Shown piece by piece: positions 121 to 32,071 of a stretch of DNA of 33,669 nucleotides; position 1 is the first letter of the stretch; each line of letters begins with the position of its first letter. A program made the position numbers and the translations under genes. The notes beneath the pieces are model-generated. The model was not told the origin of the DNA, made no database searches, and was given only the letters and a program-made list of their open reading frames with translations. This DNA is from a virus. The stretch is from the IMG/VR virus record IMGVR_UViG_3300031999_000117, positions 1-33,669 of that record, one strand, 5' to 3'.

Positions 121-1338
121 TTGACGTGTTGTCTTGTTTGGGTGCTTGGGTTGAAGGGTGGGAGGAGGCGTCTGGCTTATGGCGTGGTGGGTTCTGAGCT
201 GGCGGGGTTCGTGTCTGGGGATTCGTTTGTCTCCGAGTTTTTGGCGCGGTATAAGGAGCATGGTCGGACTCGGTGGGCTTATGCTTCGACGTTGTTCATG
301 TTTTTCAGGTGGCTGCGGCTTGTTCATGGTCTAAGCGTGGATGGGAGGCAGCTTCTTGACAAGCACATAGAGTATCGGGGAAGCGTGAAGGTTCAGAATC
401 GGCGTTGGGCTTTGCGTTTGGCGTTGGGATTCAGTCGCGATAATCCGGATCTGGCTGAGTGCTCGGACGGGCGCAAGTATCAGATGTTCAGCGTGGTGAA
501 GCAGTTTTTTGATTATCATGAGGCTCCGTTGACGTCGGGCAAGAGCGTGTATGGCCAGAGGATCAGGAGGAAGTTTCATCCCAAGCAGATCAGCGTTGAC
601 GATGCCAGGAGGCTGCTTGGCTTTTTCAACACGCGGGACAGGGCGATTCTGCTGGTGATGTTGCAGAGTGGAATGAGCATCGGCGACGTCCTGAACAAGT
701 TTAGCCTGATGCTTCCGCAGCTGTCCAGTGCCCTTCAAGCGGGGACGTCGCGTTTCAGGGTTGATTTTGACGAGCGCAAGGGAAACGGCTTCAACTACTT
801 CACTTTCATTTCGGCTGATGCGTTGCACGAGTTGCGGAAGTGGCTGTCGCTGCGCGTGCATTGGCTGGATGGCCGCGGGGATCCCGGCTGCATCTTCATC
901 GCTAAGCCCATAGCAACTAAGGGTGGCCACCCCTGCCTGGTGGGTAGGGCCTTGTCGGTGGTGAGTTTCGAAGTTAACTTTAATCGCGTGGTCAGGAAGA
1001 TGAAGTTGAAGGCTGATCCCTGGGGCGTGACTCCGCACATGTTCCGTAAGCTGTTTAAGACGGAGAGCCGGGCGCCTGAGCGGGGTGTGGATCAGGACTG
1101 TGTCGAGTTCTTGATGGGTCATTCGAGCGGGATTCAGGCGGTCGGCGGAATATATGATAGGACGCCTGAGCTGCACGCCGAGGTTGTGGAGAGGGAGTAC
1201 GCGAAGATGGAGCCTTACCTGAACTTGTACAGTGGCCACGCCGGGGCGGAAGAGGAGGACTTGAGTGATGAGGACGTTGCTAGTTTGAAGGAGCTGGCGC
1301 AGGCGATGAAAGAAGGGAAAATCAAGATCACGCCTTAA
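121..1338 (+). CDS. int: Tyrosine recombinase/integrase
   Basis: Site-specific recombinase of the tyrosine family, expected to integrate and excise this virus. The C-terminal catalytic half is clear: Lys220 in ERKGN (beta-hairpin Lys), His306-Met-Phe-Arg309 (HxxR box), Gly333-His334 and nucleophile Tyr345 in IYDRT. The place of the first catalytic Arg, usually G-[LM]-R-x-x-[ED]-[LV], reads QSGMSIGDVL with Ser186 instead of Arg; this is either a family variant or a damaged enzyme. The N-terminal part (about residues 30-120) fits a SAM-like core-binding domain. The start is uncertain: TTG 121 gives 405 residues, while TTG 151, GTG 184 and GTG 187 are in frame and a GGAGGAGG lies at about 161-168. 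It is the first gene in the window and reads into the virus. Confidence 0.9.
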   Translation: MTCCLVWVLGLKGGRRRLAYGVVGSELAGFVSGDSFVSEFLARYKEHGRTRWAYASTLFMFFRWLRLVHGLSVDGRQLLDKHIEYRGSVKVQNRRWALRLALGFSRDNPDLAECSDGRKYQMFSVVKQFFDYHEAPLTSGKSVYGQRIRRKFHPKQISVDDARRLLGFFNTRDRAILLVMLQSGMSIGDVLNKFSLMLPQLSSALQAGTSRFRVDFDERKGNGFNYFTFISADALHELRKWLSLRVHWLDGRGDPGCIFIAKPIATKGGHPCLVGRALSVVSFEVNFNRVVRKMKLKADPWGVTPHMFRKLFKTESRAPERGVDQDCVEFLMGHSSGIQAVGGIYDRTPELHAEVVEREYAKMEPYLNLYSGHAGAEEEDLSDEDVASLKELAQAMKEGKIKITP

Positions 1339-3048: not shown

Positions 3049-3909
3049 ATGGCTAAAAAAGTGTTCTTCAAGCTTGCGATGCCGAATGGTTTTGATTTCA
3101 ACACGGGCAAAACGATAAACTATCGTGAGGGCATTGGCAAAGTCGTTAGGGTGCCAGCGTTCGACACGCCGCCGGTGCTCTGCAGCGACTCGGTTCTGCA
3201 TGCGTGCGCGAATCCTAATGACTGTTTTGTGGGCGCGAGTATTCCCTGCAGCGCCTTCAGGGTCACCGGTAACCCCGTGGTTGATGATGGGAGCAAGTGT
3301 GGCTTCAAAGAGCTAAAGGTCGTCGAGGAGATCCCGCAGGACAGGCTTGACAAACTGTTCGGTTGGAAGTATAGCGAGGTGTGCAATCCGCTTAACCCGT
3401 TGAAGGTTACGGCCCCTGCGGTTGGGCCTGAGGTTTTGGGGTTGCTGCAGAATTGGGCCTCTGTTCGGGCCTCTGTTCGGGACTCTGTTCGGGACTCTGT
3501 TCGGGCCTCTGTTCGGGCCTCTGTTTGGGACTCTGTTTGGGCCTCTGTTTGGGCCTCTGTTCGGGCCTCTGTTTGGGACTCTGTTCGGGCCTCTGTTCGG
3601 GCCTCTGTTTGGGACTCTGTTCGGGCCTCTGTTCGGGCCTCTGTTCGGGCCTCTGTTTGGGCCTCTGTTTGGGCCTCTGTTTGGGACTCTGAATACGCTT
3701 ACCTTGGAAGCCTCTTCCCAAAAATTAAGGAGTGGAAAGGCGTGCAGCACAAGGCAGGCGTTTACCCGTTCCAGTCTTGCGTGGACCTGCTGAGACTGGG
3801 TTTTATTCCCTGTTTTGACGGCGAAACGTGGCGGCTTCACGTTGGGACGAAGATGATACCCGTCTACGCGGTTACCCGTGAACAGCTCAAGAAAATTCTG
3901 GAGGCCTAG
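3049..3909 (+). CDS. Minisatellite protein with 20 tandem [W/R][A/D]SV units
   Basis: A 286-residue protein in three parts. Residues 1-135 are a globular N-terminal region with several Cys (ALCSDS-like region through PNDCFVGASIPCSAF). Residues 136-215 are 20 consecutive four-residue units, [W or R]-[A or D]-S-V, ending in WDSE. Residues 216-286 are a globular C-terminal domain (YAYLGSLFPKIKEW through FIPCFDGETWRLHVG). Repeats of the type DSVWASVRDSV followed by an aromatic segment and a short C-terminal domain occur in other phage and bacterial hypothetical proteins as I recall; no function is established to my knowledge. A four-residue period could form an amphipathic helix or a coiled stalk. 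The start ATG 3049 has GAAGGGG upstream. It stands immediately before the ParB-like gene. Confidence 0.75.
   Translation: MAKKVFFKLAMPNGFDFNTGKTINYREGIGKVVRVPAFDTPPVLCSDSVLHACANPNDCFVGASIPCSAFRVTGNPVVDDGSKCGFKELKVVEEIPQDRLDKLFGWKYSEVCNPLNPLKVTAPAVGPEVLGLLQNWASVRASVRDSVRDSVRASVRASVWDSVWASVWASVRASVWDSVRASVRASVWDSVRASVRASVRASVWASVWASVWDSEYAYLGSLFPKIKEWKGVQHKAGVYPFQSCVDLLRLGFIPCFDGETWRLHVGTKMIPVYAVTREQLKKILEA
3454..3690 (+). repeat. 12-bp coding minisatellite, 20 units
   Basis: Each unit is [C/T]GG-G[C/A]C-TCT-GTT. Only two positions vary: C/T in the first codon (Arg or Trp) and C/A in the second (Ala or Asp). The TCT and GTT codons are invariant in every unit, so the array has been homogenised at the DNA level. 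Because 12 is a multiple of three and the unit lacks stop codons on either strand, all six frames stay open through it, which explains the overlapping spurious ORFs here. Copy-number change would lengthen or shorten the protein without a frameshift. Confidence 0.95.
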
Positions 3910-3912
3910 GGC

Positions 3913-5193
3913 ATGGTTCTGAAGCTGCCTTCAGACTTCGCGAAGAAGATTGGCGAGGTTCTTTGCGTCCAGGAGCAGGGCGTCAACATGCTCTTCGACG
4001 TGTCCGAGGATAAGGCCGGTTACTTTGTAGCTAAACTTAAGCCCAGTCAACGTCTCGACAAGACGCAGTTTAAGACGACGTGCGCTTTGACGAGGGACCT
4101 GGGCGGCAAGGACTACCTGATAGGTTCAGGAGAATGGAAGGCGCCTGGCCCCTTCGCTAAGAAGTCTCCGGAAGCGCCATCTGGGCAGGGAATGGGTTCC
4201 GAACACGCTTATAAAGCGCCTGGGAACGCGACCCCAACTGCATCATCAGAGTTGGTAACGCCTAGTGTCCCTGTTAGAAGTGAATACACGTTTTTGCCGC
4301 TAACAGCGCTCTTGAGCATGCATTTTCAAAGCCGCACGGTTCAGGAAGGACCAGAATTTGATGATCTCGTTGAAAGCGTCAAAGCTCTCGGCGTTTTGCA
4401 GCCTATTCTTGTGAGGCCGAAAGGTGGACTCTTCGAAATCGTTTATGGCGAGAGGCGCACCGCAGCAGCAAAGAAAGCAGGATTGCATGAGATACCCGCG
4501 AGAATCAAGGATCTAAGTGACAAGGAAGCCTACGAGATCCAGTTGATCGAGAACATTCAGCGCAAAGACCTGTCGGACATGGAGAAGGCCAGGATGCTTG
4601 ACATGATGATCACGCAGTTCGGGTACACGCAGGAGGCGCTTGCGAAGAAGCTGGGGAAGAGCCAACCTTGGGTTTCTCAGCATCTAGCTATGCTTCAGAT
4701 TCCCGAAAATATCACACGTGTGATAAAACAAGGGGAACTTACGGAAGGACAAGCGCGTGAGATTCTTGCTGCTCCTGAAGAAAAGCGTGAAGAGATACTT
4801 GATAAAATTAATGAGACTGGTGAGGTGCCTTCTGGCCGTAAGATTCATGAGATCGCGCATCCTGACGAGAAGCCTAAGACTGTTTCTTGTGCTCGTTGTG
4901 GTGATGAGACTGTTGTCCCGGTGAATCTTGGTGGCAAGTTTTACTGTGGTGATTGCGCTGAGGCTGTTGTCGCTGAGGCTAAGACTGGTCACGGCCCGTC
5001 TATTGCGCCAGAAGAGGTAGAAGAGGTAGAAGAGAGAGAAAAAGTAGAGGGAAAGTCTTCCAGGAGCGAGCAGCTGAGGGCTGTTCAGATCGGCGAGTTC
5101 GAGTGCACGGAATGCCATAAGCGCTTCATGGTGGATCACATGCGAAACGGCAAGCACAAGCTTAGGCCTATCCTGGAGGCTGATGAGGAGTGA
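3913..5193 (+). CDS. ParB-like protein with N-terminal extension and two zinc motifs
   Basis: A 426-residue ParB/Spo0J-family protein. Residues 1-80 are an extra N-terminal domain of unknown type, then a Ser/Pro/Thr-rich linker to about 115. The ParB N-terminal (CTP-binding) domain follows at about 116-215, with the signature GERR at 179-182 and the ENIQRKDLS region. A helix-turn-helix is at about 238-261 (YTQEALAKKLGKSQPWVSQHL). After the DNA-binding domain come a zinc ribbon (C326xxC329, C345xxC348), an EVEEVEE acidic linker and a C2H2-like motif (C398xxC401, H409, H415). Classic ParB proteins bind and spread from parS sites with a ParA ATPase, but no parA is visible here, so a transcription or genome-organising role is as likely as partition. 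It ends in a GTGA overlap with the next gene. Confidence 0.85.
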   Translation: MVLKLPSDFAKKIGEVLCVQEQGVNMLFDVSEDKAGYFVAKLKPSQRLDKTQFKTTCALTRDLGGKDYLIGSGEWKAPGPFAKKSPEAPSGQGMGSEHAYKAPGNATPTASSELVTPSVPVRSEYTFLPLTALLSMHFQSRTVQEGPEFDDLVESVKALGVLQPILVRPKGGLFEIVYGERRTAAAKKAGLHEIPARIKDLSDKEAYEIQLIENIQRKDLSDMEKARMLDMMITQFGYTQEALAKKLGKSQPWVSQHLAMLQIPENITRVIKQGELTEGQAREILAAPEEKREEILDKINETGEVPSGRKIHEIAHPDEKPKTVSCARCGDETVVPVNLGGKFYCGDCAEAVVAEAKTGHGPSIAPEEVEEVEEREKVEGKSSRSEQLRAVQIGEFECTECHKRFMVDHMRNGKHKLRPILEADEE

Positions 5194-5725: not shown

Positions 5726-6435
5726 TGGTGACTGTTGAGGAGCTGCGCTTGAAGTGGCCGGTGCGCGAGGTCTCGGTTTACGGCAACTGCATAGTCGTTC
5801 CGGACAAGCAGTTTAAGCGCGAGTGGGAAGAGGACCTCAAAGCTGAGGGCGCCGTCGTGCTTTACCAGGTTCTTCCAGGCGGAACGTGTGCTCTGGTGCG
5901 GTTGAAGGGTAGGCAACTAGAGGTTTCTAAGCCTAAGATCGTGTACCTGCATAAGAAGAAAGGCGGCGGCTATTATCAGAAGTGGTCGCCTGAAGAGGAC
6001 GAGCGGTTCATGGAGCGCATGGGGCAGCTGAAGGGCACTGTCTCGCATAGGTGTAAGGTTCTGGCTAGGGAGTTCAATCGATCGGGCTTGCTGCAGAGGT
6101 ACTATAAGTTTAGGGTTAAGCCTGAATTCAGGGACAAAGAGCCGAAGTTACCCACCGCGTTACCTACAACGTTACCTACTGTTTTGCCCTTGGTGGGTTT
6201 GCGTGAGGTTTTAGTCGAGGTTCGGAGCGAGGTTTACGCGATGATGAGGGAGCACGGCGACTTCAAAAGTTGCCATGAGGGTTACGCGGTGATTTTGGAG
6301 GAGCTTGATGAGTTGTGGGATGAGGTTAAGAGGCCGCCGGAGAGCCGTGATCTTCAGCGTCTCCGCTCCGAGGCGTTGAATGTGGCTGCGTCGGCAGCAA
6401 AGTTCGCGTTGTTCGTTGAGAAGGAGAAATCATGA
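5725..6435 (+). CDS. SANT/Myb-like domain fused to MazG-like NTP pyrophosphohydrolase-type domain
   Basis: A 236-residue two-part protein. The first 70 residues are a beta-rich N-terminal domain. Residues 86-130 resemble a Myb/SANT helix bundle (KWSPEEDERFMERM then CKVLAREFNRSGLLQRYYKFR), probably DNA- or protein-binding. A linker with repeated LPT units follows. Residues 173-230 match the helical pattern of phage MazG-like proteins: HGDFKSCHEGYAVILEELDELWDEV, with acidic residues E192, E193, E196, D199 and E200 arranged as in metal-binding ExxE, then a second helix with SEALNVAASAAKFAL (E216) for the distal acidic contact. Family members hydrolyse dNTPs to dNMP and PPi. Fusion to a Myb-like domain is unusual. 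It is coupled to the next gene by ATGA. Confidence 0.6.
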   Translation: MVTVEELRLKWPVREVSVYGNCIVVPDKQFKREWEEDLKAEGAVVLYQVLPGGTCALVRLKGRQLEVSKPKIVYLHKKKGGGYYQKWSPEEDERFMERMGQLKGTVSHRCKVLAREFNRSGLLQRYYKFRVKPEFRDKEPKLPTALPTTLPTVLPLVGLREVLVEVRSEVYAMMREHGDFKSCHEGYAVILEELDELWDEVKRPPESRDLQRLRSEALNVAASAAKFALFVEKEKS

Positions 6436-6929
6436 AAATCCCGTATATTAGTACAGAAATTTCGCCTGAGAGGACGCAGATAGACATTAAGCGGATGCTG
6501 CAGGAGCATGGGATACGGGATATCCAGTGGACGACGTACAAGGGAAAGACGAGTCTGCGCTTCGTTTGGCTGGTTGACGTCAGGGGCGTGCAGAAGGAGA
6601 TCCTGTTTCAGTTCGTTGTTCCAGGCATCACGACGCTGAAGAGGGTTTGGGATCAGAAGGCTCAGAGGTACGTCAAGACCACGGTCTTCTTGGAGGCGAC
6701 TTCGTACAGGCTGCTTTGGCACTACCTTAGGAACAAGCTGGAGGCTGTGCGGTGGGGCTTGGAGAGCATGGAGAAGGAGTTCCTGAGCCACGCCGTAGTC
6801 GCTCTACCGACAGGTGAGCAGATCACCGTAGGCGAACGAATCAGCCAGGTGTTTGACGCAGTCACTAATCCAGCGCTGGAGTACACGCCGCCCAAGATAG
6901 ACGCCCGTGATAATGCTATTGCACTGTAG
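6432..6929 (+). CDS. Hypothetical protein of the early region
   Basis: A 165-residue protein beginning in an ATGA overlap. It has a mixed alpha/beta N-terminal half (TQIDIKRMLQEHGIRDIQWTTYKG then a strand-rich stretch ILFQFVVP) and a helix in the middle (SYRLLWHYLRNKLEAVRWGLESMEKEFL), ending in a Pro/Asp-rich tail. No catalytic motif is apparent. Gene coupling suggests it works with the Myb/MazG-like protein. Confidence 0.65.
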   Translation: MKIPYISTEISPERTQIDIKRMLQEHGIRDIQWTTYKGKTSLRFVWLVDVRGVQKEILFQFVVPGITTLKRVWDQKAQRYVKTTVFLEATSYRLLWHYLRNKLEAVRWGLESMEKEFLSHAVVALPTGEQITVGERISQVFDAVTNPALEYTPPKIDARDNAIAL

Positions 6930-6939
6930 GTGATTGAAG

Positions 6940-7104
6940 TTGGGTGAGCCTTTGAAAATGAAGTATGGGGTTTGGTGTAATCCAACGCGGATAGGCAAGC
7001 GAGGCGACGACTACTATCGCGTGTTCAAGACTCTGGAGGAAGCGAAGGAATTCTGGAGAACGCATCCTGAGGCAGATCACGCCTATTTCAAGATTGAGGA
7101 ATGA
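6940..7104 (+). CDS. Hypothetical 54-residue protein
   Basis: TTG 6940 has AGGTGAT (6928-6934) five bases upstream and runs 55 codons to TGA 7102, overlapping ATG 7101 of the next gene as ATGA. The peptide reads like a small folded domain (KYGVWCNPTRIGKRGDDYYRV then a helix LEEAKEFWRTHPEADHAYF), with a beta-alpha order like small phage proteins that compare a residue register. An ATG at 6958 is an alternative start. Function unknown. Confidence 0.6.
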   Translation: MGEPLKMKYGVWCNPTRIGKRGDDYYRVFKTLEEAKEFWRTHPEADHAYFKIEE

Positions 7105-7457
7105 AAATGGCTGAACCTTTGAAGTTGTCTATTGAGGAGCTTAAGCGTAGGTATCCTCACGCGGCCACGCACATCACCGAGGCGGGTCTTCTGGGAGCCG
7201 GCAAGCAGACGTTGGAGACGTGGGATTGGGAAGCGAAGCAGTGTGACCGTGTAACAGAAGCCGTAAGCTCAGAAGCTTGCCCCAAATGCGGAGGCAAGTT
7301 GTGGAGGATGGGTGATGTGCTTGTCAACTTCTACTTTCCGTTTGTTCACAGCATGCGGGTTCAAGTCCCGTCCCTGTTGGGGATGAACAGTAGAGATGCC
7401 GGAAGCGTGACGTGTATCACGTGTGGCTTGAAGAGGAGGCTTAACCGTGGCGAATGA
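7101..7457 (+). CDS. Zinc-ribbon protein
   Basis: A 118-residue protein with an N-terminal helical region (LSIEELKRRYPHAATHITEAGLLG) and one zinc ribbon made of CPKCGG and CITCGL, about 40 residues apart. ATG 7101 overlaps the previous stop; ATG 7107 is also possible. The coding sequence around 7351-7373 contains a tRNA T-arm-like stretch (see findings). It probably binds nucleic acid, but no specific role can be assigned. Confidence 0.6.
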   Translation: MKMAEPLKLSIEELKRRYPHAATHITEAGLLGAGKQTLETWDWEAKQCDRVTEAVSSEACPKCGGKLWRMGDVLVNFYFPFVHSMRVQVPSLLGMNSRDAGSVTCITCGLKRRLNRGE

Positions 7458-10844: not shown

Positions 10845-11181
10845 TGAAAAAAAGAATTCTTTTTTTGTACATACGCTCTACTTGCGGGTTTTCACTCGAT
10901 TAGCGCAGAAAGTGAACCCGGGCGATTTTAAGAGGGCGCATGGGTACATAGCGAGAGATAAGATTTGCAGGCTTCTAGCGGAGGAGTGTTATGAGCTTGC
11001 GCAGAAGTTTCTGAATCTTCCGCAGCCAAAATATAAACTTAGTTTGCAGTACATGAAGCTTGCCGCGAAACTACTTGGTATGAGTTTGAAGCCTAAGAAG
11101 CTTTCAGACCTTGATGAGATTAAGAAGGCCATTGGTCGACTGAGGGAGAAGCGGCCTGATGTGGAGAGGCCTGCCGGATAG
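10828..11181 (+). CDS. Helical protein before TerL, possible small terminase subunit
   Basis: A 117-residue, almost entirely helical protein (MMSAHDEKKNSFFVHTLYLRVFTRLAQKV through SLQYMKLAAKLLGMSLKPKKLSDLDEIKKAIGRLREK). ATG 10828 has AAGGGA seven bases upstream; ATG 10831 is the alternative. It overlaps the preceding gene by 17 bases and the terminase start by 23. Its size, helical content, basic C terminus and position directly upstream of the large terminase match small terminase subunits, but no sequence signature proves it. Confidence 0.5.
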   Translation: MMSAHDEKKNSFFVHTLYLRVFTRLAQKVNPGDFKRAHGYIARDKICRLLAEECYELAQKFLNLPQPKYKLSLQYMKLAAKLLGMSLKPKKLSDLDEIKKAIGRLREKRPDVERPAG

Positions 11182-12010
11182 CCCTGCGGGGTTATGGCGT
11201 GAGGTTGATAAACTTGGGCAGAACGAGTTGGAGCCTGTTGTGGTACCAGAAAAACCCTTGGCTTTGGTCAAGGAGCTTTTCAATTTCACTCCGACAGAGT
11301 ATCAGGCTAGGCTTCTTGAGGACGAGAGCAAGCGCATTGTTGTGAGGTGGAGTCGTCAGGCCGGCAAGACGACGACTATAGCGCTACGGGCTTTATGGTT
11401 CGCGCTCACGCATAATAGGACTTTAAGTTTGATTGTTGCTCCGAGCTTTCGCCAGAGCATGATTATGGGTGATCGAGTGCAGGACTACGTGTCTGGTCTT
11501 CCTGCTAAAACTCGTCGTTCTCTTGTGGAGAAGCAGCAGCGCACGGTTCTCAAGTTCAGAAACGGTTCTAGGATAATCATGCTGCCTAATAGTCCTCAGC
11601 TGCTGAGGGGCTACACGGCGCACCAGGTGATTTGTGATGAGGCGGCGTTCTTTCATGAGGACGATCTGGTGTTTTACAACGTGCTTTACCCGATGCTGGC
11701 GACGACTGATGGCGCGCTTATCGCCTCTTCGACGCCTTGGAGCCGTGACAGTGTCTTCTACCGCATGTGCAACAGCAAGGATTTCAAGCAGCACGTGGTG
11801 ACTTGCGAGGATGTTGTTAGGTCTGGCTTGATTAAGCAGAGTTTCATTGATCAGATGCGCGAGGAGCTGCCTGAAGAGCGGTTTAGGCGGGAGTTCTATT
11901 CGGAGTTTGTTGAGGACGCGGATGCTTGGCTGCCTCAGGCCTTGATCGTGCAGTGCATTGAGAGCGAGTTGGAATTAATCCAAGAACACGAAATATTTAT
12001 TAATCTTTGA
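11159..12010 (+). CDS. terL: Large terminase, N-terminal ATPase part (exon 1)
   Basis: The packaging motor ATPase. It has an N-terminal Q-like region (TPTEYQARLLED), Walker A WSRQAGKTTT (K70, T71), Walker B VICDEA (D160, E161) and a coupling motif near IASSTPWS. The frame ends at TGA 12008, right after the ATPase domain (WLPQALIVQCIESELELIQEHEIFI), just where the nuclease domain should begin. The missing nuclease half is found at 12600-13166 in another frame, beyond an HNH gene. Exon 1 joined at the AA of codon 12002 to the AA at 12600 restores one frame and gives IFINFEGAFYAGVDLGK, a normal TerL transition. Start ATG 11159 follows GAGGGAGA. Confidence 0.9.
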   Translation: MWRGLPDSPAGLWREVDKLGQNELEPVVVPEKPLALVKELFNFTPTEYQARLLEDESKRIVVRWSRQAGKTTTIALRALWFALTHNRTLSLIVAPSFRQSMIMGDRVQDYVSGLPAKTRRSLVEKQQRTVLKFRNGSRIIMLPNSPQLLRGYTAHQVICDEAAFFHEDDLVFYNVLYPMLATTDGALIASSTPWSRDSVFYRMCNSKDFKQHVVTCEDVVRSGLIKQSFIDQMREELPEERFRREFYSEFVEDADAWLPQALIVQCIESELELIQEHEIFINL

Positions 12011-12600
12011 GGACATACTACATTTCGGTAGATATGAAAAGAATAGTATGCCCTATTTGCGGTCACGAATTTGAAACGAGGTCAAAAACAGGTCACACGA
12101 ACTGCGGTAAATGCTTAGCAAAAATAATATTTGACAAAGAAAGAAATCACGAATACAGACGCGCTTATTGGAGCGAAAAAAGAGAGCATCTAAGAGAAAA
12201 GGCTCGGCAGCGTTACCAGCGAAATCGTGAGAAGATTAGACTATATCAAAAAACACATTATGACCACGCAAAAGCCATACAGAGAGTAAGAAAATGGGTT
12301 ATTGAAAACCCAGAAAAGAGGAAACATTGGATACTGGAAAACAAATCGCGCAACTATTGCAAAAAGTTGACTCATTACCGTAACGCGAAGGCAAAGAAAG
12401 TTAAACTTCTAGGCGGAAAATGCCAAGTTTGCGGGTACAACAAATGCTTAGACGCTTTAGTATTCCATCATAAGGATGCCTCAACGAAAAAGACGGAAAA
12501 AGATTGGTATAAAGCTGATACTGACCTCACAAATTTGGTTCTCCTTTGCGCTAATTGTCACGAAGAACTACACTCTAAATTGAGGGAAGAGACTTTTCAA
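12003..12600 (+). other. Putative intron in the terminase gene, about 598 bases
   Basis: Boundaries are inferred from frame: removing 598 bases (ambiguous by two because AA occurs at 12002-12003 and 12600-12601) fuses the ATPase and nuclease halves of TerL. The ends carry imperfect direct repeats, AATCTTTGAGGA (12002-12013) and AAACTTTGAAGGA (12599-12611). The HNH gene fills the insert and its 3' end extends 60 bases into exon 2. I see neither a clear bulge-helix-bulge nor the U/G pair of a typical group I intron at these exact ends, so the splicing class is open. An intein is excluded by the frame change and stops. Confidence 0.6.
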
Positions 12601-12660
12601 ACTTTGAAGGAGCATTTTACGCGGGAGTCGATCTTGGAAAAGAGAAAGATCATTCAGTAA
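12034..12660 (+). CDS. HNH homing endonuclease inside terL
   Basis: A 208-residue HNH nuclease from ATG 12034 (TTG 12007 is in frame but lacks a site). An N-terminal zinc finger (CPICGHEF then CGKC) is followed by a long basic helical region rich in Lys, Arg, Tyr (SEKREHLREKARQRYQRNREK). The HNH core is CQVCGYNKCLDALVFHHKD with the downstream NLVLLCANCHEELH, containing the metal-binding Cys pairs and the catalytic His-His. Its base composition is far richer in A/T than the viral genes around it. The last 20 or so codons overlap TerL exon 2 in another frame. HNH enzymes of this type promote spread of introns or free-standing homing genes. Confidence 0.9.
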   Translation: MKRIVCPICGHEFETRSKTGHTNCGKCLAKIIFDKERNHEYRRAYWSEKREHLREKARQRYQRNREKIRLYQKTHYDHAKAIQRVRKWVIENPEKRKHWILENKSRNYCKKLTHYRNAKAKKVKLLGGKCQVCGYNKCLDALVFHHKDASTKKTEKDWYKADTDLTNLVLLCANCHEELHSKLREETFQTLKEHFTRESILEKRKIIQ

Positions 12661-17984: not shown

Positions 17985-19025
17985 ATGCCTAGACATCCAG
18001 ATTTTGAGAAGATCTTTCAGGCCTTCATTAAGCGTTACGGCCAGGTGGAGGGCGAGAAGAACTATTACGCTTGGCTATCGAAGATGGGGCTGGACGACAC
18101 TAAAAGCTACGCGAGGCCTCAGGAGAGCCTTGGCATGGAGCGCTTTAACTGGGCTCAAGTTCTCTTCAACTACGTTCGTGAGGACGAGACTAGGAAGTAC
18201 TTCAAGGTCGAGGCGAGTTTTCCGCTTAGCAGCATGAACAACTATGTTTACACGGAGGATGAGCTGCTGCGGGGCGCTAGGAGTCTAGTCGGCAAGCAGG
18301 TGAACCTGAATCACGAAGGCGCGTCGCTTGGCAGCGTTTCCATCGAGGGAGCGGAGTTCGAGGACGGCGCAGTCGAGTGCGTCCTTGGGTTCCTGAAGGG
18401 TAGCGATGTTCTGGGGATGGTGGAGAAGGGCGAGATCGTTCACGTGAGCACTGAGGCTGATTGCACTCAGGGTACCGAACTGACGGCTGATGGCTCCGTC
18501 TGTAAGGGTCTTGTGTACACGGGTCTTGCTTTGTTGACGAAGGACGTGTTGCCCGGCGTACCTCTGACCAGAATTATGAGTCTGGAACGGATGGTTGAGG
18601 GCTTCATGGTAACTTTGAATGGTGGTGAAAAAGTGAGTGAAAATGATAAGGTGAAAACCGAGGACAAGGTAGCTCCGGTAGCTCCTGTGGAAAAAGTAGC
18701 TCCTGTGGAAAAGGTAGAGGCGAAGGCTGAGGAGAAGAAGAACCCATGCGAAGAGGCGAAGGATGCTCTGTTGGTGCGGGTTTCGGCCCTCGAGGGCAAG
18801 TTTCAGGCGATCGAGGCTGCTGAGGCGAAGGAGCTGAAAGATACCGAGGAGAAGGCGGCTGTCGACACAAAGGCCGTTGAAGCCAAGCGGAACATGGCTC
18901 CAAGTGTTTTGACGAAGGAAGGGTTCTGGGCAAGGTTCCACGAGCTCCGAAGAGACGGCTGCAGCAAGAGCGACGCTTTCAGGATTATCAGCATGGAAGT
19001 TATCGAGGCCTCAGGCAAGCGGTAG
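17985..19025 (+). CDS. Capsid maturation protease fused to scaffold
   Basis: A 346-residue protein. Residues 1-45 resemble a short N-terminal helical module. Residues 50-215 fit a prohead protease: YFKVEASFPLSS, GKQVNLNHEG (candidate His), VHVSTEAD (candidate Ser in the strand) and VYTGLALLTKDVLPGVPLTRIM. Residues 218-300 are a Glu/Lys/Ala-rich scaffold segment with PVEKV repeats and coiled coil, and the last 45 residues form a separate helical tail (GFWARFHELRRDGCSKSDAFRIISMEV). Such fusions cleave themselves and the capsid N-terminal delta domain. It precedes the major capsid gene, as expected. The catalytic assignment is by pattern. Confidence 0.7.
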   Translation: MPRHPDFEKIFQAFIKRYGQVEGEKNYYAWLSKMGLDDTKSYARPQESLGMERFNWAQVLFNYVREDETRKYFKVEASFPLSSMNNYVYTEDELLRGARSLVGKQVNLNHEGASLGSVSIEGAEFEDGAVECVLGFLKGSDVLGMVEKGEIVHVSTEADCTQGTELTADGSVCKGLVYTGLALLTKDVLPGVPLTRIMSLERMVEGFMVTLNGGEKVSENDKVKTEDKVAPVAPVEKVAPVEKVEAKAEEKKNPCEEAKDALLVRVSALEGKFQAIEAAEAKELKDTEEKAAVDTKAVEAKRNMAPSVLTKEGFWARFHELRRDGCSKSDAFRIISMEVIEASGKR

Positions 19026-29954: not shown

Positions 29955-30389
29955 GTGAAGAAGATGAAGGTGGCGGCGTTTGAGGATGAAGAGGATTTTC
30001 TGAGTCTTGACGCGGTTATCGCGAACCCGGCGGATCCCAAGAAGCGCTGTGACATCAAGTTTATCGTTGACACCGGCGCGGGCATGACGGCTATAACGTC
30101 GGAGATTGCGAAGCGCCTTGGCCTAAAGTACGTGGCCACAGCCGAGGTGGGCCTTGCGAACGGCACAGTCATCAAGGTCAATCTTGCGTATGCTTATCTT
30201 TACATTCATGGGGAGCACGTGTTTACTCTGGTCGGCTGCGGCGGGTGCGATGTTCCGCTTCTAGGCTTTGATGTTATGTGTCTTTTGCAGCTGCAGCTTG
30301 ACGTTGCTAACAAGAAGGTTTTGAGGCCGGCGCGGAGGAGCTTCAAGATTCTGAGAATCGTGTGGAAGAGGATGTGGCGTAATGCCTGA
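29955..30389 (+). CDS. Retropepsin-like aspartyl protease
   Basis: A 144-residue protein with the retropepsin fold markers: FIVDTGAGMTAIT (catalytic Asp39 in D-T-G), helix SEIAKRLGLKYV, EVGLANGTVIKVNLAYAYLYIHGE and the LLGFDVMCLLQLQLDV segment with hydrophobic-hydrophobic-G. This is the single-domain, homodimeric type. It lies in the tail-tip module, next to a small membrane protein, so it may process a tail-tip protein or act on the host envelope. It is the only clear protease in the window besides the prohead protease. Confidence 0.8.
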   Translation: MKKMKVAAFEDEEDFLSLDAVIANPADPKKRCDIKFIVDTGAGMTAITSEIAKRLGLKYVATAEVGLANGTVIKVNLAYAYLYIHGEHVFTLVGCGGCDVPLLGFDVMCLLQLQLDVANKKVLRPARRSFKILRIVWKRMWRNA

Positions 30390-30627
30390 CTGGGTTAAGA
30401 GGGTTTTGACTAGGCGCGTCCAGAGCAAGGGCAAAAAAGTGATTGTTCTTGAGCCGAACGAGAAGCTTGTCTACGCGGTGAAGTTCGCGCTGGGCATGAC
30501 GGCGTGTCTCTCGGCTTTGGAGGTGGCTCACATGGCCTTCCTTGGCTCTTGGAATAGTGAGATCTTCGCTGGGATATCGGGTTTGATTGGCACGGTCACG
30601 GGAATAATTCTTGCGCAGAAAGCTTAG
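30382..30627 (+). CDS. Small membrane protein, holin-like
   Basis: An 81-residue protein with a basic N terminus (VKRVLTRRVQSKGKKVIVL) and two hydrophobic segments (YAVKFALGMTACLSALEVAHMAFL and IFAGISGLIGTVTGIILAQKA). Size and topology fit class II holins. It overlaps the protease gene by eight bases. No lysin is recognisable nearby. Confidence 0.6.
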   Translation: MPDWVKRVLTRRVQSKGKKVIVLEPNEKLVYAVKFALGMTACLSALEVAHMAFLGSWNSEIFAGISGLIGTVTGIILAQKA

Positions 30628-32071
30628 TGAAGTCTTTAGAATTCATAAGGTTCTGCGTCGTTTCGACCGTCACTCAGGTAAATTCATAATCAACGTTTCT
30701 TTCGAGACGTGCGCTCCTGAGCCTTCGGATCGCGTTGTGGCGACGGCTGAGGCGTTCGGTCTCGGCTTGGGCAAGTGGGAGAAGTTCACTGTTTTTGAGA
30801 ATGTTGACTTGAAGATTGGTGTACACGATGGTGTATACATCACGGGCGACAGTGGTAGCGGCAAGAGTGTTCTGCTTCGTGCCCTTGAGAAGGACATCAG
30901 GAAGGACCTTAAACTAACTTCTTTTAACGTAAATAACGTTAAAGTGGATTCTAGCAAGCCCTTGATCGAGACCGTGGGTAAGACGGTTGAGGAGGGCTTG
31001 GCGCTCTTGGCGCGTGTGGGTCTTGGGGACGCTTTCCTGTTTCTGCGCACTTTCAGAGAGCTTAGCGACGGCCAGAAGTATCGCTATAAAATAGCTAAGA
31101 TGATCGAGTCCAAAGCGCAGTTCTGGGTTCTTGACGAGTTCGCGGCTACTCTTGATCGTGACACGGCGAAGGTTGTGGCTTGGAACCTTCAGAAGATTGC
31201 TCGATCGGAGGGCAAATGCGTTCTTGCAGCCACTACTCACAAGGACTTGTTACTTGATTTGAACCCTGACGTGCACGTGCACAAGCGGTTTGGCAAAGAT
31301 ATCCACGTCGCTTACTACCCTAATCCCGTTCTAAGAGCCTGCAGCCTCGTTGGAGAGATGAAGATTGAAGAGGGCTGTATGGCTGACTGGAAGGAGCTCG
31401 CGTGCTTTCACTACCGTAGCCATAGGCTGCCGGCTCCAAGAAAGATCTTCTGTCTCCGGCGTGGCGAGGAGTTGTGCGGAGTCATCGTCTACTGTTATCC
31501 TTCGCCGGCGTGTTTCGGCCGAAGACAGGTCCTGCCAAAGATGCAGATGAGCGAGTTGAACAAGCGCCTGAGCGTCATCAGCCGTATAGTCATTCACCCG
31601 AAATACCGTTCCCTTGGTCTTGGCGCTGGTCTTGTCCGCGAGACTCTTTCTCTTGCCGGCACAGAGTACGTGGAGTTGGTCGCTGTCATGGCTAAGTACA
31701 ATCCTTTTGCGGAGAGGGCTGGAATGAAGAGAATAGCTATGCAGGTTCAGAGTAAACAGGTGCTGGCGCTTGCGGGGATCCTGGAGTCGGTGGGCTTGGA
31801 TCGCAGGCTGTTCGGATGCGTTGGCCACGTGGAGGAGCGGCTGAAGGCCATGAGCAGGGAAAAGGTGGATCTCGTGAGGGCGGCCTTTGTCAAGTGCAAG
31901 AACGGGTCGTTTCAGAAGGTTTTTTGGACCACACCCTACGGGCGCGCTGCGGAGTACGGGAAGTGTGTTGAGAAGGCTGGCGTCGACCGGCTTGCCCTGT
32001 TGATTAAGGCGTGCGGCTTTCTACTTCAGGAAAAAGTCTACTTATTTTGGTCGAGTAGTTTGAACTCGTAG
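30611..32071 (+). CDS. ABC-type ATPase fused to GNAT-like acetyltransferase
   Basis: A 486-residue protein of the family described as ABC-type ATPase fused to a predicted acetyltransferase (COG2401-like). Residues 60-230 hold an ABC nucleotide-binding domain: Walker A GDSGSGKS (79-86, K85), signature-like LSDGQKYR, Walker B FWVLDEFAA and H-loop ATTHKD. Residues 250-390 hold a GNAT domain, with RIVIHPKYRSLGLGAGLVRETL as the acetyl-CoA binding motif. The remaining C terminus is uncharacterised. No transmembrane partner is present. The role is unknown; it may modify a substrate in an ATP-dependent way. It ends the rightward late operon and overlaps the leftward ASCH gene at its 3' end. Confidence 0.85.
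   Translation: MRRKLSEVFRIHKVLRRFDRHSGKFIINVSFETCAPEPSDRVVATAEAFGLGLGKWEKFTVFENVDLKIGVHDGVYITGDSGSGKSVLLRALEKDIRKDLKLTSFNVNNVKVDSSKPLIETVGKTVEEGLALLARVGLGDAFLFLRTFRELSDGQKYRYKIAKMIESKAQFWVLDEFAATLDRDTAKVVAWNLQKIARSEGKCVLAATTHKDLLLDLNPDVHVHKRFGKDIHVAYYPNPVLRACSLVGEMKIEEGCMADWKELACFHYRSHRLPAPRKIFCLRRGEELCGVIVYCYPSPACFGRRQVLPKMQMSELNKRLSVISRIVIHPKYRSLGLGAGLVRETLSLAGTEYVELVAVMAKYNPFAERAGMKRIAMQVQSKQVLALAGILESVGLDRRLFGCVGHVEERLKAMSREKVDLVRAAFVKCKNGSFQKVFWTTPYGRAAEYGKCVEKAGVDRLALLIKACGFLLQEKVYLFWSSSLNS

Follow-up and report, generated by a model that had tools for sequence, protein, structure and literature searches.

In TAL effector and PPR repeats, structured units of 34-35 residues keep a fixed frame and vary at two positions per unit, with a conserved target code. 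Focused diversification of phage proteins is known from diversity-generating retroelements. The repeats in Liberibacter prophage genes are reportedly long, at about 130 bp, and we know of no two-site alphabet in them. According to Zhou et al. 2011, as cited in PMC3862640, in-frame repeats of Liberibacter asiaticus prophage genes vary between strains. For the Acinetobacter phages fEg-Aba01, fLi-Aba02 and fLi-Aba03, the authors listed "27 bp repetitions (6-13 repetitions)", suggested that some mutations arose during laboratory propagation, annotated the array gene as an ADP-ribosyltransferase forming a possible toxin-antitoxin pair with its upstream gene, and saw no gross growth effect in fEg-Aba01, which is without the 3′ end of that gene (PMC7354433). 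Variation of the 27-bp repeat is already on record, in passing, in that one paper. A search of the open-access literature returned no description of [WRG][AD]SV arrays and nothing under DUF7666, DUF6745 or the repeat strings. Here, such an array is described in a viral stretch of 33,669 nucleotides (the window; IMG/VR record IMGVR_UViG_3300031999_000117) and compared with its relatives.

A 12-bp In-Frame Array in a Lysogeny-Region Gene

The array (Table 1) was recovered by TRF as a single tandem repeat (3455-3691, period 12, 19.8 copies, no indels, score 376). The initial annotation had described a 12-bp minisatellite of twenty units varying at two bases; its period and its two variable bases were confirmed by TRF and by per-base heterozygosity (H), but only 19 units in frame from 3454 are complete, the twentieth consisting of nine bases (TGGGACTCT, WDS) after which the C-domain begins. 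Base 1 of the unit is C or T, giving Arg or Trp (H 0.49), and base 5 is C or A, giving Ala or Asp (H 0.39), while H = 0 at the ten remaining bases, every silent position included, across the 19 window units. Exact double-unit matches in the window numbered 18 on the plus strand and 0 on the minus strand, and a reversed control pattern gave 0. Minus-strand ORFs at 3313-3840 and 3407-3721 and plus-strand ORFs at 3422-3793 and 3453-3692 were set aside as frame shadows of the repeat. A pentapeptide repeat protein (five-residue period A(D/N)LXX) was ruled out, the period being exactly 12 bp, or 4 residues, and the Pfam pentapeptide family having no match on the window protein; weak PADLOC matches on the array region (REase_II and Cas2, E >= 2.8e-4) were judged compositional. 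A second short tandem repeat in the window (18678-18717, 18 bp x 2.2) lies inside ORF 17985-19025.

Table 1. Coordinates of the array gene, its parts and neighboring genes in the window
Feature	Coordinates	Strand	Basis or remarks
Tyrosine integrase	121..1338	+	PF00589, E 1.6e-7
Array-carrying ORF (N-domain, array, C-domain)	3049..3909	+	286 aa; ATG start, open frame
N-terminal domain, candidate divergent DUF7666 (Pfam) relative; ART-like fold as a lead only	3049..3450	+	Profile and fold comparison
Array	3454..3690	+	19 units [TC]GG-G[CA]C-TCT-GTT plus partial 20th, coding [W/R][A/D]SV
C-terminal domain	3691..3906	+	YLGSLFP..WK...YPFQ..DL...GFIPCFDGETWRLH; alignment; AlphaFold2 pLDDT 85-97
ParB-like partition protein, next gene	3913..5193	+	PF02195, E 3.3e-22

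Relatives of the array ORF share 40-62% identity over most of its length, and the window C-domain is common to more than 50 array proteins; in the window-type architecture, the N-domain resembles FKLARPDGFDFYTGKTINYR... and the C-domain ends in PSFDGKTWRLH. The proposed HMM search of the C-terminal domain matched no Pfam family. An NCBIfam search gave no match, a PDB sequence search gave nothing below E 0.078, and tblastn of P0001 against phages found no match.

The ParB gene starts 4 bases past the array gene, with which it is probably co-transcribed, and the position of the integrase identifies the lysogeny side of the genome. The combination of integrase and ParB with terminase and portal genes in the window indicates a tailed temperate virus, and TFIIB-like zinc ribbon and winged-helix proteins encoded there hint at an archaeal host. 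Elsewhere in the window, a terminase large-subunit ATPase ORF of just 283 aa is overlapped by an HNH endonuclease ORF (11159-12660), possibly reflecting a terminase split by a homing-type insertion. Also present in this tailed virus are a retropepsin-like aspartyl protease (29955-30389; PF13975, E 3.2e-10) and an ABC-type ATPase fused to a GNAT-like region (30611-32071; PHROGs category moron/host takeover).

Diversity at Coding and Silent Sites

A degenerate DNA pattern of three NGG-GMN-TCN-GTN units matched at least 119 viral-contig stretches, the {W,R,G}[A,D]SV alphabet is present in well over 100 viral contigs, and 79 loci were confirmed by tblastn as relatives of the window protein. Cellular and prophage matches comprised a few genuine loci amid many unrelated simple repeats, including GASVGASV and RASVRASV in GC-rich genomes; the Lactococcus (L330) and Halobaculum (L329) loci carry other repeats, not this array type. 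In a pooled set of 135 arrays (2868 units), the limited residue choice first seen in the window emerged as a general rule, the types WD, RD, WA, GA, GD and RA accounting for 12-17% each and together for 83% of the units. The description of the array as binary is true of the window, but not of its relatives, whose first position takes three letters, W, R and G (arrays without G: 11/135).

For 122 arrays of at least 10 units each, which are related and therefore not a count of independent events, mean heterozygosity at coding bases 1 and 5 was 0.604 and 0.451, respectively, whereas silent bases 6, 9 and 12 gave 0.028, 0.019 and 0.032. H >= 0.4 was reached at base 1 in 97.5% and at base 5 in 81% of arrays but at only 1.6% of silent array-sites, and silent heterozygosity equaled or exceeded coding heterozygosity in 0/122. 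Since the search pattern left bases 1, 6, 9 and 12 free, restricting base 5 to A or C, the contrast at those four bases was not made by the search. Silent codons vary between arrays and hardly within one: silent sites are homogenized within arrays, whereas many arrays retain a mixture at two residues per unit, one taken from {W,R,G} and the other from {A,D}. Turnover alone predicts equal silent variation, so that the 15-25-fold coding-site excess implies selection or targeted change; in a neutral copy-replacement simulation with matched silent H, H >= 0.4 arose in 2% of cases. Arginine is encoded by AGG only in 98 arrays, by CGG only in 27 and by both in 3, and this exclusivity within arrays indicates that units spread by copying rather than by fresh mutation. 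Simple one-unit slippage is disfavored, lag-1 similarity being below random at base 5 (z -4.6).

Turnover between Near-Identical Viruses

Turnover of units is rapid and proceeds by their gain, loss and shuffling in frame. The recent turnover proposed in the initial annotation was substantiated, as the length and order of arrays differ between viruses that are near-identical over kilobases; identical arrays in relatives, with the synonymous pattern of old sequence, were not found. Among pairs drawn mostly from short-read metagenome assemblies, in which individual differences may include errors, L059 and L072 do not differ in the 2.9 kb of flank compared, while their arrays have 25 and 24 units (two lost, one gained); L086 and L259 show 6 differences in 9613 bases, including a D-to-A change inside the array; L032 and L278 (98.7% over 9.9 kb) have genes of equal length with scrambled arrays; and L276 and L279 (flanks 98-99% alike) likewise have scrambled arrays. 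Isolate phages from Acinetobacter make the stronger case, since the metagenome contigs are largely short-read assemblies: fLi-Aba02 and fLi-Aba03 have 0 mismatches over 2.5 kb upstream and 1.8 kb downstream of arrays that are six units apart, and the three undetermined bases (N) of fLi-Aba03 all fall in variable codons of the array. At least 20 assembled phage contigs start and end inside such an array (e.g., 3300031716_000030 and 3300022666_000061), twelve SV-array contigs having been chosen because both ends had matched, and it follows that such arrays break metagenome assemblies.

Architectures, Domain Kinship and Gene Context

Proteins with the array fall into at least three architectures, which together involve a minimum of three N-terminal and two C-terminal domains. 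Beside the window type, a second architecture joins a different N-domain (MCKFFS...) to the window-type C-domain, and the third (type B) combines the N-motif WCGSPLSQ with a C-domain corresponding to Pfam DUF6745 (PF20530), which type-B proteins match down to E 2.9e-66; the window protein has no match to this C-domain. At 45 loci (L009 6090-6413 and 44 others), the DUF6745 array gene is immediately preceded or followed by a small conserved gene of about 100 aa (YRQGDVLI...GEATGHHH...HEEH...LPPGxYEV.RQREY), matching no Pfam family among those scanned and a possible functional partner of the array gene. A DUF6745 protein of a Mycobacterium abscessus prophage (L331 4932-6377) has [WRG][GD]QL units, and one from Nocardia farcinica (L326, about 6001-7353) has mostly [WGRE][AD]QV units; with nearly the same variable residues beside fixed QL or QV, the alphabet evidently outlives fixed-residue change. 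A Streptomyces DUF6745 gene without an array (L328 4872-5939) lies beside an STM4012-4015 radical SAM cluster. In L100, L042, L124 and L061, clusters of many short ORFs (about 60-130 aa), several to a contig, consist almost wholly of xxSV units.

Against DUF7666 (PF24703), the window protein scored 18.3 bits in full and 20.8 bits for the domain alone, under the curated cut-off of 27 bits, the N-domain alone reaching E 5.5e-4, below the cut-off; 3/10 close relatives matched at E <= 0.01 (best 1.2e-6). An hhalign comparison of the window-type N-domain profile (A3) with true DUF7666 (A4, of which 20/20 members match PF24703, best 2.3e-39) gave E 7.5e-5 and a probability of 62% over 93 columns. 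Foldseek against BFVD with the full-length model returned DUF7666-named matches at E 3.8e-5, 2.2e-4 and 4.4e-4, with a shared predicted fold. These profile and model comparisons point to the window N-domain as a divergent relative of DUF7666. Phage proteins that truly belong to DUF7666 have another array, GAASATGxx, with a 27-bp unit (75 arrays, 681 units), whose two variable codons show H of 0.14-0.52, compared with 0.015-0.073 at silent sites; 20/20 sampled GAASATGxx proteins match PF24703, and a C..G[FLMI]H motif occurs in 66/68 with enough upstream sequence. No DUF7666 gene was found in E. coli genomes.

The proposed structure prediction succeeded in part, AlphaFold2 modeling the flanking domains of array proteins well but the array only as a low-confidence helix (mid-array pLDDT about 40-56 in the window protein and 28-43 in a DUF6745 protein). 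Foldseek of the full window model against the PDB gave nothing below E 0.001. For residues 1-109, the PDB rows returned by VIA nearly all belong to the ADP-ribosyltransferase superfamily (Z 4-5.8), among them Arr (Z 5.8, rmsd 5.1, 89 aligned) and Tpt1 (Z 5.7, rmsd 3.0, 76 aligned), values below Z 8 that may reflect a common arrangement; an ADP-ribosyltransferase-like fold of the modeled N-domain is a lead. VIA on the DUF6745 model was uninformative (best Z 3.3).

Among 86 neighbors of array genes in relatives, with the first 25 families listed, those matched more than once among the matches listed were DUF6745, DnaB, KaiC/AAA ATPases, RecT, HNH and two small kinase families, with ERF, methylases, integrase and two terminase genes once each and no tail families. 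The recognizable neighbors are thus mostly early, DNA-metabolism or lysogeny genes, not tail genes. Reverse transcriptase (RVT_1) was found in 0/26 records, which include the window and may be fragments; a control matched in 3/14 genomes.

Discussion

The reading favored here, which receives about half of our credence, is that the array is a hypervariable recognition module in an early-region phage protein that is probably intracellular. In such a protein, the hypervariable array would lie between an N-domain of DUF7666-like type and a small C-domain. Selection would favor diversity, so that the array would act as a combinatorial surface for recognition, its length and unit order being reset again and again, and the domains on either side would contribute an activity that stays constant and is targeted or regulated by the array. 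If diversity is selected, something variable would be recognized, by an intracellular protein expressed early or in lysogeny, and the driver may be, for example, an arms race against a host factor or among competing prophages. Of the functions suggested in the initial annotation, a putative variable binding surface fits best. Counting against a recognition module, the order of units is not conserved, as would be equally expected of an order-independent segment, composition per array is over-dispersed, the array lacks a confident predicted fold, most of the arrays compared stem from short-read metagenome assemblies, and growth of fEg-Aba01 was not grossly affected by the missing 3′ end of its array gene (PMC7354433).

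The strongest rival, tentative but still with an appreciable chance of being right, is such an order-independent low-complexity segment, in which a mixture of aromatic, positive, negative and small residues is selected as stickers and spacers, as a flexible or weakly helical linker or as a former of condensates or coacervates, while order and length drift freely. Order is indeed scrambled even at 1-2% flank divergence, the six types are used near-evenly with only a weak serial pattern, the array lacks a confident predicted fold, and some short ORFs are almost only xxSV units; arrays with a higher fraction of R also tend to have a higher fraction of D (rho 0.27, p 0.0017), as charge balance would lead one to expect. 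A constraint on composition alone, however, should also admit residues such as K, E, Y and N, but the six types account for most units, and the alphabet recurs with other fixed residues. Distinctly less probable is an intracellular effector or toxin-like module, its ART-like DUF7666 domain stabilizing the lysogen or acting on the host or a rival phage and its array a tether slipping under weak constraint. The VIA rows, the lysogeny-region position and the annotation and proposed toxin-antitoxin pairing of the Acinetobacter homologs (PMC7354433) speak for it, but the low Z scores may reflect a common arrangement, the three N-domains show that the array is not tied to one activity, and weak constraint leaves the coding-site excess unexplained.

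A neutral minisatellite, functionless and driven by slippage and unequal recombination, would account for the rapid turnover and for the contigs that start and end inside arrays; with silent sites fixed and two coding sites polymorphic consistently across the 122 arrays, it was already disfavored and is very unlikely. Targeted mutagenesis of bases 1 and 5, for instance by a diversity-generating retroelement, would fit the limitation of change to two nucleotide positions and the single D-to-A change between L086 and L259, but the absence of reverse transcriptase from the 26 records (possibly fragments) and a base 1 that is A or C, almost never both within one array, leave it barely credible. 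The tunable stalk suggested initially, a virion stalk or receptor-binding protein of adjustable length, would exploit a frame kept at any array length and residues rich in W, R and D; it is highly improbable because the window gene has integrase, ParB and early genes around it, and in relatives those neighbors whose function is known are mostly of the RecT, DnaB and ERF kind, not tail genes.

A broader and more speculative proposal, which we consider unlikely, is that of a protein "barcode" family common to phages and archaeal and bacterial proviruses, in which four-residue units with a fixed 3 x 2 alphabet, shuffled by recombination and maintained at near-maximal diversity, would serve self/non-self or target recognition in the host cell and be exchangeable between effector domains. 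The silent sites provide an internal gauge of unit turnover, so that every array tests selection by itself, and this array-internal test strongly indicates that two residues are kept diverse. Hundreds of uncharacterized viral genes in two DUF families are concerned. If the arrays are recognition modules, they would offer a simple, readable arms-race record and an instance of phage protein diversification without reverse transcriptase.

Comparison with Known Systems

The Liberibacter prophage genes, as far as the citing source describes them, resemble the window array in having in-frame repeats that differ between strains. TAL effector and PPR repeats share with it a fixed frame and two variable positions, whereas the units here have 4 residues and their order is not conserved. 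Unlike diversity-generating retroelements, the array occurs with no reverse transcriptase in the 26 records, and its alphabet is unlike that of adenine mutagenesis. DUF6745 phage and bacterial proteins likewise hold a [WRG][AD]SV array between N- and C-domains, but both domains differ from those of the window, and many of their genes adjoin the conserved QGDVLI/GHHH/HEEH gene, which the window is without. The DUF7666 GAASATGxx proteins, like the window protein, combine a related N-domain, a hypervariable two-residue array and a C-domain in a lysogeny-region gene, and the Acinetobacter phages among them, like window-type relatives, differ in unit number between near-identical phages; their unit, however, has 9 residues rather than 4, their variable residues are adjacent and drawn from a broader alphabet, and, unlike them, the window N-domain scores under the Pfam cut-off.
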